Shown here: in pieces, positions 2,793-4,281 of the stretch
Layout of the letters: each line of letters begins with the position of its first letter
Position numbering within the stretch: position 1 is the first letter of the stretch
Assembly: GCA_021787775.1 (NCBI GenBank)
Contig: JAJYLK010000030.1
Location: 1 to 8,856 of the forward strand
Direction of reading: 5' to 3'
Source of the DNA: Actinomycetes bacterium
Lineage (GTDB): Bacteria; Actinomycetota; Thermoleophilia; BMS3ABIN01
DNA length: 8,856 nt
The notes under the pieces: model-generated
What the model was told of the DNA's origin: nothing
Seen by the model: only the letters and a program-made list of their open reading frames with translations
The model's database searches: none
Translations under genes and position numbers: made by a program

Positions 2793-2934
2793 TTCACCCG
2801 TGAATAAAGCAGAAGCACCCGCTTCTCACCTGCCGGCAACGGCGCGGCTTCAGGCCGCACTCTGATGAGAGCTTGCAGGTTACGCCATATGTCAGCGGCT
2901 GGGCGGTCCGCCCATGCGTGAGCCTGATTACGCG

Positions 2935-2960
2935 AGGGTGCTTTTGGGTACCCTTTTTTT
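2935..2960 (+). terminator. Intrinsic terminator inside the infC leader
   Basis: AGGGTGC (2935-2941) pairs with GTACCCT (2948-2954), seven pairs including one G-U, around the loop TTTTGG. It is followed directly by an uninterrupted T-tract (2954-2960). It lies about 135 bases after the predicted transcription start and about 115 bases before infC. That position fits an attenuator rather than the end of the lipoprotein transcript, although it could also stop read-through from upstream. Confidence 0.8.
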
Positions 2961-3062: not shown

Positions 3063-3075
3063 AGGAGAGGAGGTG
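3063..3075 (+). promoter_or_regulatory. Ribosome binding site that fixes the infC start
   Basis: A purine-rich AGGAGAGGAGGTG lies directly before the TTG at 3077. The distal AGGAG (3063-3067) leaves nine bases to the TTG, a normal spacing; the proximal AGGAGG leaves only three. The in-frame ATG at 3059 lies before this site and has no Shine-Dalgarno of its own. Confidence 0.65.
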
Positions 3076-3076
3076 T

Positions 3077-3613
3077 TTGCCGGTCGCACATTATAAAGCC
3101 CGGGTCAGGGATCTGACCCGGATAAATGAAGCCATCAGGGTTGACAAGGTACGGCTGATCGGGCCGGACGGAGAGCAGATCGGGATCAAGAGCCGTCAGG
3201 ATGCGCTCGATTTCGCCGTATCGAGGAACCTTGACCTGGTTGAGGTCGCACCTGAAGCCGACCCTCCTGTCTGCCGGGTGCTCGACTATGGCAAGTACAA
3301 GTACGAACAGGAGCAGAAGGCCAAGCAGGCGCGGAAGCACCAGTCCACCATAGTCGTGAAGGAAATCAAGCTGCGTCCCAAAATCGGCGTGCACGATTAC
3401 GAGACCAAGAAGGGGCACGTGGTGCGGTTTCTGAACAACAAGGACAAGGTCAAGGTGACGATCATGTTTCGGGGGCGTGAGGTGGTCCATCCCAGCAAGG
3501 GAGAGGAGCTCCTCCGGCGCCTCGCCGACGATGTGGCCGAACTGGGAGTGATTGAATCGCAGCCCAACCTCGACGGCAGGAACATGATCATGGTGTTAGC
3601 CCCTGTAAAATAA
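3077..3613 (+). CDS. infC: Translation initiation factor IF-3
   Basis: IF3 binds the 30S subunit, keeps it apart from 50S and proofreads the initiator tRNA-start codon pairing. From the TTG start the product is 178 residues, within the normal range. The N-terminal domain (about residues 14-75) starts at [20 protein letters not shown]. The family signature [15 protein letters not shown] follows and runs into the charged linker helix. The C-terminal 30S-binding domain (about 90-178) carries [18 protein letters not shown] and [18 protein letters not shown]. The TTG start is chosen because the strong Shine-Dalgarno lies within any longer frame. Non-AUG starts are typical of infC in other bacteria and underlie IF3 autoregulation there. 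It is the first gene of the operon, downstream of the attenuator-like leader. Identity is certain; the exact start is less so, with ATG 3059 as the alternative. Confidence 0.95.
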
Positions 3614-3645: not shown

Positions 3646-3705
3646 GCCGGTTGCGCATGGTTGCGCGCAGGCCGGCTGGCAAAACCCTTCAAGCCGAAAG
3701 GAAGG
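3646..3705 (+). promoter_or_regulatory. Stable hairpin plus ribosome-site-masking stem in the infC-rpmI gap
   Basis: A long hairpin forms from GCCGG (3646-3650) with CCGGC (3672-3676), continued by TGCGC (3652-3656) with GCGCA (3665-3669). It has a U-G pair and a bulge between the helices and an eight-base loop. A second stem pairs CCTTC (3686-3690) with GAAGG (3701-3705), which covers the Shine-Dalgarno of rpmI. In E. coli, L20 blocks rpmI translation by binding RNA structures in this same intergenic position. An equivalent operator here is inferred from location and structure only. Confidence 0.45.
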
Positions 3706-3708
3706 CAT

Positions 3709-3906
3709 ATGCCCAAGATGAAGACTCATCGCGGCGCCGCCAAGCGTTTCCGGTTCACTTCCGGAGGCAAACTGTTGCGCCGCCGTGGCTACAAGAGCCA
3801 TATCCTGGAAAAGAAAAGCCCCAAGCGGAAGCGCGGTTTCCGCAAGAACGTCGAGATGGCTTCCGGCGATGTCCGGAACGCCAAGCGGATGCTGGGCAAG
3901 AGGTAG
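3709..3906 (+). CDS. rpmI: 50S ribosomal protein L35 (bL35)
   Basis: A small, very basic 65-residue protein of the large ribosomal subunit, at the usual length for the family. The sequence opens with [17 protein letters not shown], the L35 hallmark, and continues with [27 protein letters not shown] and a MLGKR end. The ATG at 3709 is preceded by AAAGGAAGG (3697-3705). Longer in-frame starts near 3661 would add an unrelated N-terminus and cross the upstream hairpin, so they are rejected. It lies between infC and rplT, the conserved order. It ends in TAG, 15 bases before rplT. Confidence 0.97.
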
Positions 3907-3921
3907 AGGAGTCGATCAGCC

Positions 3922-4281
3922 ATGCCAAGAGTCAAGAGAAGCGTCCACGCCCGCAAGAAGAGGCGCAAGGTCCTCGACCAGGCCAGCGGGTACCGGGGCA
4001 CCAAGAATTCCAGTTATAAGCGCGCCAAGGAGCAGGTCAGCCGTTCGCTGATGTACGCCTTCCGTGACCGGCGCGTGCGCAAGCGCGATTTTCGCCGCCT
4101 GTGGATCACCAGAATCAACGCTGGCGCCCGTCAGAACGGCATGTCGTACAACCAGTTCATGCACGGGCTCAAGCAGGCGCAGATCGACCTGAACCGCCGC
4201 ACGCTGGCGGATCTGGCGGTCAGCGATCCGGAGATGTTCTCCAGCCTGGCCGAGCAGGCCAGGTCGGCCCTGTCGGCCTGA
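3922..4281 (+). CDS. rplT: 50S ribosomal protein L20 (bL20)
   Basis: L20 is an early-assembly 23S rRNA binding protein and, in E. coli and B. subtilis, the autogenous repressor of this operon. The product is 119 residues, the standard length. The basic N-terminal extension MPRVKRSVHARKKRRKVLDQASGYRG is followed by KEQVSRSLMYAFRDRRVRKRDFRRLWITRINAGAR, then NGMSYNQFMHGLKQAQIDLNRRTLADLA, all diagnostic. An AGAGGAG (3905-3911) overlaps the rpmI stop and precedes the ATG by ten bases, so L35 and L20 may be translationally coupled. L20 is the prime candidate ligand for the structured RNA in the infC leader and the infC-rpmI gap. Confidence 0.98.
   Translation: MPRVKRSVHARKKRRKVLDQASGYRGTKNSSYKRAKEQVSRSLMYAFRDRRVRKRDFRRLWITRINAGARQNGMSYNQFMHGLKQAQIDLNRRTLADLAVSDPEMFSSLAEQARSALSA

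Follow-up and report, generated by a model that had tools for sequence, protein, structure and literature searches.

The stretch of DNA analysed here (the window; 8,856 nucleotides) very likely carries, upstream of infC, a genuine L20-type attenuator working by the mechanism of the Bacillus subtilis infC leader. We give a probability of about 0.86 to the overall switch model, in which ribosomal protein L20 at the junction of two hairpins (H1 and H2) would decide between a terminator and an antiterminator; L20 is presumably the ligand, its binding would favour the terminator, and the helices would probably pair in the order set out below. The leader is located 5' of infC-rpmI-rplT, as is characteristic of the Rfam family L20_leader (RF00558), and these genes are followed by those for an rRNA methylase, pheS and pheT. 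On the forward strand, infC (3077-3613; Pfam IF3_N and IF3_C) encodes IF3 and has an in-frame TTG at 3077, its start codon being uncertain; rpmI (L35; 3709-3906; Pfam Ribosomal_L35p) has an ATG at 3709 within an ORF beginning at 3661; and rplT (3922-4281; Pfam Ribosomal_L20, E 2e-45) encodes L20, the presumed regulator.

All parts of the leader lie on the same strand. A match to a sigma-70 type promoter (2764-2792), composed of the -35 element TTGCCA (2764-2769), a 17-nt spacer and the -10 element TATACT (2787-2792), puts the expected transcript start near 2799. It agrees with the consensus at 10 of 12 positions, a score reached once versus a mean of 0.2 times in shuffled sequences, and TATACT is kept in all 15 sequences of the family f1 for which upstream DNA was available, the window included (the sixteenth, L019, is too short). 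Hairpin H1 (AGAAGC-ACCC-GCUUCU; 2811-2826), delimited by the sequence, the predicted fold and the Rfam alignment, bears the apical loop ACCC at 2817-2820. The arms of H2, ACCUGC (2828-2833) and GCAGGU (2875-2880), come from the fold, as does a further hairpin within H2 (2844-2858), which belongs to a stretch exceeding the Rfam consensus and appears as an insertion in the alignment. The intrinsic terminator (2934-2960) consists of a 9-bp stem (2934-2942/2947-2955), written in full as GAGGGTGCT-tttg-GGTACCCTT from 2934 to 2955, and a T tract reaching 2960.

The original prediction placed a long-range antiterminator between H1 and this terminator, and its coordinates proved exact. The strands CAGAAGCACCC (2810-2820) and GGGTGCTTTTG (2936-2946) can form 11 bp, one of them G-U, giving a duplex of -19.9 kcal/mol. 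The sequence and the fold place in the first strand a flanking base, the 5' arm of H1 and its ACCC loop, while the second comprises seven of the nine bases of the terminator 5' arm together with the terminator loop; the long-range helix thus excludes both H1 and the terminator. Folding with and without the complete terminator, a check that had been proposed, made the energy model switch between the two predicted states. RNA 2799-2946, in which the terminator 5' arm and loop have just been made, adopts the long-range helix (-63.0 kcal/mol versus -59.8 with H1 forced), and RNA 2799-2965 folds into H1 and the terminator (-67.5 kcal/mol). Taken alone, the 11-bp complementarity is only mildly unlikely to have arisen by chance: when the leader was shuffled 300 times under a first-order Markov model, four shuffles contained a run of this length, with at most one G-U pair and a separation of at least 40. 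A single window therefore cannot settle whether the pairing matters, and it is the comparison across lineages that makes the antiterminator convincing.

The search against Rfam, also proposed beforehand, returned a full-length match to RF00558 (2801-2967; 43.2 bits, E 4.7e-6), although this score is below the curated cut-off of the family (58.7 bits), which is a reporting threshold and no biological feature. The conserved H1/H2 core of the family, AGAAGC-NNNN-GCUUCU-C-[AG]CCU, and a Rho-independent terminator excluding an alternative pairing are both present in the leader. Other Rfam families were rejected, as all seven further matches had E values of 1.9 or higher. A 23S stretch of the f4 genome G027, GGGGCTCAAGCCGAG, which we take to be the L20 region of 23S rRNA, resembles the f4 leaders (GAGGTTCAACCGAGTC) by eye only, without statistics. 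A search with a 23S pattern gave one match, at L252, where no family reached its gathering score.

Related genomes are grouped here in numbered families, the numbers being labels arranged around G001, the closest genome, which has 20% of its words in common with the window. We infer that G001 and these families belong to the Actinomycetota; the two nearest infC genes that were located are those of MAGs titled Actinomycetes and Thermoleophilia. RF00558 was matched at E <=1 in 27 of 60 relatives, none of the 60 exceeding the curated cut-off, and at E <=0.05 in 82 of 396 sampled genomes of the phylum, one of which exceeded it. In the scan of 60 relatives 25 of 30 loci adjoin infC, which is absent at the other five (L023, L026, L027, L029 and L030). 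All 26 new loci from the top of the phylum scan lie before infC, and 16 of 20 loci from further down adjoin it, infC being absent at L289-L292 (E 0.0047 or worse). In addition, 276 genomes of the class had IF3, and from these 100 infC upstream regions were taken, chosen by family among the matches listed, with f6, f10 and f12 left out.

The scans, the 100 upstream regions and two Bacillota together yielded 123 parsed leaders in 24 lineages. Sequences without an H1 under the parsing rules were dropped (L163, L164 and L212, as well as L167, L169, L170, L171, L175, L192, L218 and L222, several of which have a variant H1 by eye), as were duplicates (L028, L031 and L032) and leaders whose terminator was not clear (L194, L200, L213 and L222, also left out of the swap test over 58 leaders described below). 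For the window, L008 and L024, the terminator was placed manually. By eye, no such leader was seen in the fetched and unscored infC upstream regions of f2 (12), f7 (3), f8 (11) and f9 (6). The L20-type attenuator of the original prediction, with its mutually exclusive terminator and long-range antiterminator, is upheld by the Rfam match, folds, genes and lineages; its suggestion of a possibly lineage-specific element is not, as 22 families of the phylum, together with the two Bacillota, yielded leaders of the same architecture upstream of infC.

Several side observations emerged from these surveys. L194, L200, L213 and L222, all of f4, retain H1, while the 3' arm or T tract of their terminators is weak or lost; possibly they represent a natural loss of attenuation, or a switch to another mode. 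In L009 (genome G018; also in L028) the leader's first part occurs a second time from about position 725, some 770 bases ahead of the complete leader; this copy runs into the apparent end of an NAD synthase gene and is either a duplication or an assembly artefact. RF00558 was also matched in the control genomes of Thermotoga maritima and Bacteroides ihuae in both scans, and in the E. coli and Methanosarcina controls in the scan of 60 relatives only; these matches may reflect a wider spread or chance. Eleven viral contigs were picked up in a 17-mer scan; tblastn detected no infC in them, and the matches were attributed to chance.

Evolution of the antiterminator was followed by a swap test, in which terminator segments were exchanged among leaders and the duplex with H1 was recomputed. 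The test is not tree-aware, and relatedness was guarded against by using one leader per family. Over 58 non-redundant leaders, own pairings were the better ones on average, at -18.57 versus -15.16 for permuted ones (z -9.3, p 5e-5), and the signal was also found within f4 alone (28 leaders; z -5.4, p 5e-5). A control segment located between H1 and the terminator gave p 0.86 (56 leaders) and 0.26 (26 leaders of f4). With one leader for each of the 24 lineages the worst p in 60 draws was 0.001, and the median z was -4.9 for the upstream segment with the 5' arm, -6.2 for the arm with the loop and -7.0 for the whole hairpin. Chance complementarity of H1 and terminator was rejected on the basis of the swap tests over the 58 leaders and the 24 lineages. 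The H2 helix ACCNNN/NNNGGU could be formed by 84 of the 123 leaders, whereas swapped partners allowed it in 14.6 on average (maximum 24).

The covariation expected for 2810-2820/2936-2946 was therefore seen across the 24 lineages, where H1 and terminator changed jointly, but not within f1, where the pairing is conserved: f1 alone gave no signal (z -1.0, p 0.36 and 0.40), because the pairing hardly varies there. Taken separately, f3 (p 0.09 and 0.08) and f5 (p 0.02, 0.05 and 0.19, depending on which of three redundancy levels was applied) gave weak results. A leader's own terminator was its single best partner in only 2 of 58 cases (median rank 9), since the terminators of relatives fit about equally well. 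The rewriting can be followed in f4, with the H1/terminator pairs CCCGTT/AACGGG, TCCGTT/AACGGA and TCCGTTC/GAACGGA, and in the antiterminator strands AAATCATCTA/TAGATGATTT of f16 (L258), GCTACCTGC/GCAGGTAGC of f80 (L257), GCCATTCG/CGAATGGC of f67 (L256) and AAATGCCGCTC/GAGTGGCATTT of f32 (L276); pairing is weak in f34 and f68 (-12.7 and -11.0 kcal/mol). Judged from these comparisons, there is strong evolutionary support for an antiterminator that appears to have been repeatedly rewritten across lineages and never lost.

The energy model was applied to all 123 leaders. When the RNA ended at the terminator loop, at least five antiterminator pairs formed in 113 of them, including all 16 of f1, and the other ten kept H1 (four of f26, two of f32 and one each of f3, f5, f40 and f69); the antiterminator was thus seen in one of five leaders of f26 and in none of f32 (2), f40 (1) and f69 (1). 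In the fold through the terminator, the terminator was present in 85 leaders and missing in 38 (3 of the 16 in f1), while the full-length minimum-energy fold still contained the antiterminator in 41, including 24 of 35 in f4 and 2 of 16 in f1. The complete succession, antiterminator first and terminator later, was obtained for 77 of the 123.

We propose that H1 and H2 would form first in the nascent leader. As the terminator 5' arm emerges, its GGGU would contact the ACCC loop of H1, and pairing would then spread along the H1 5' arm (2810-2820/2936-2946) and open H1; the terminator arm would thereby be sequestered and RNA polymerase would continue into infC. L20 exceeding its site in new 23S rRNA would bind the H1/H2 junction and keep H1 closed, the antiterminator would be blocked, and the terminator would halt transcription. 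For B. subtilis, PMC6097659 describes L20 at the H1/H2 junction and a terminator stabilised by its binding, from which it would follow that free L20 closes H1 and permits termination.

Within this scheme the contact between ACCC and GGGU might be an obligatory kinetic trigger, beyond forming part of the final helix, and this we consider rather unlikely. In the window transcription reaches GGGU before the other terminator-arm bases that take part in the helix, the f1 antiterminators leave no base of the H1 loop unpaired, and across lineages the paired fraction of loop bases is 0.84 in own versus 0.69 in swapped pairings. However, the bases made first in L276 and f4 find their partners in the 3' arm of H1, the long loop of f78 is paired to only 0.26 and that of f34 not at all, and the energy model is silent on kinetics. 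Loop-first nucleation is plausible in f1, as far as the modelled folds indicate; since much of the pairing in f3, f4, f32 and f78 runs through the H1 3' arm, it is no general rule.

The attenuator could also be real and respond to a signal other than L20, such as IF3, L35, another RNA-binding factor or translation near infC. We regard this as improbable. A short reading frame running into the infC start in f4 and f11 would agree with such a signal, but H1 and the CACCU following it match the Firmicutes L20 site, the leader core AAAGCAGAAGCACCCGCTTCTCACCT is identical to that of Anoxybacillus over 26 consecutive bases, H2 co-varies, and rplT is present 3' of infC and rpmI. It is less probable still that the complementarity arises incidentally from two hairpins that have nothing to do with each other, with a constitutive terminator, as the recurrence of the 11-bp run in shuffles is outweighed by the swap tests, both between families and inside f4, and by their negative control. 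Equally slight is the chance that the attenuator is specific to this lineage and has no relation to the Firmicutes leader; the score under the Rfam cut-off and the extra stretch inside H2 speak for it, and the full-length profile match, the 26-nt identity and the similar leaders in 22 families speak against it.

Some features concern the translation of infC and its surroundings. At 3068-3085 the window contains a Shine-Dalgarno-like stretch, AGGAGGTG (GAGGTG in all f1), with an in-frame GTC 6-7 nt beyond it. All 16 f1 sequences keep this GTC, whereas the codon of a later valine varies (GTC, GTA, GTG, GTT). The TTG at 3077 is TTG in 5 of 15 f1 relatives and otherwise TCG, TGG or TAG (TAG in L001 and L019). 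In several further lineages the corresponding codon is ATA, ATC or ATT, which are known non-standard starts of infC. From these sequence patterns, infC may start at the GUC codon. In f4, f8 and f11 (e.g. L191, L155 and L165) the TGA of a short reading frame, in f4 often TTG-GTG-ANN-NNN-NNN-TGA (by eye, uncounted), overlaps the presumed TTG or GTG start of infC, which suggests coupled translation. In f3 leaders such as L015, L018 and L166, a purine-rich Shine-Dalgarno-like stretch precedes the terminator and the infC ATG comes a few bases past the T tract; the terminator might for this reason also affect translation. Finally, 23S genes of f1 are long or broken (3511 bases in G011, L303, versus a model of 2925 positions; three pieces in G001, L304), which suggests intervening sequences.

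The infC leader of B. subtilis is reportedly the subject of a 2007 study by Choonee. The window leader shares with it and with RF00558 the position 5' of infC-rpmI-rplT, a near-identical H1/H2 core, a T-tailed terminator and alternative structures, and differs in its phylum, the longer stretch inside H2 and the score below the cut-off; moreover, several related families use a different antiterminator register. As in the two Bacillota leaders, Anoxybacillus L279 (73.7 bits) and Listeria L280 (70.6 bits), H1 pairs with the terminator 5' arm. According to a review (PMC10931766), the B. subtilis leader may adopt two alternative structures. The same review describes L20 control of rpmI-rplT in E. 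coli, which resembles the present case in the protein and genes, the long-range pairing and, presumably, the mimicry of the 23S site; there, however, control is translational, spares infC and involves a long-range pseudoknot, whereas the window leader has a transcription terminator before infC. A narrow distribution, in Firmicutes, is given for the L20 leader by Babina 2018 (PMC6097659). In Mycobacterium tuberculosis, the infC 5' UTR is long (326 nt), resembles that of infA and is compared with the L20 case (PMC3207917). A literature search on the L20 leader, RF00558 and infC brought up no recognisable report of an L20 leader in Actinobacteria, and earlier reports may exist. The mechanism is already known and ordinary; its occurrence is, as far as could be seen, new for the lineage.

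For the phylum, these results mean that the standard Rfam cut-off hides the L20 leader, one genome passing it compared with the 82 of 396 matched at E <=0.05. On the other hand, not all weak RF00558 matches are real, as the difference between the top-ranked and the lower-ranked loci beside infC indicates. The co-variation of H1 and terminator in 24 lineages provides evolutionary support for the antiterminator, and it supplies natural variants with which to examine the rewiring of a protein-sensing switch around a retained ligand site. Tentatively, and at somewhat less than even odds, we suggest that the L20 leader is ancient and predates the split of Actinomycetota and Bacillota, its platform (the H1 stem ends, CACC and H2) having stayed fixed while the H1 loop and terminator helix were continually rewritten, with register and arm changing many times. 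If this is true, one protein-sensing RNA would be traceable across phyla through its co-varying switch helix.
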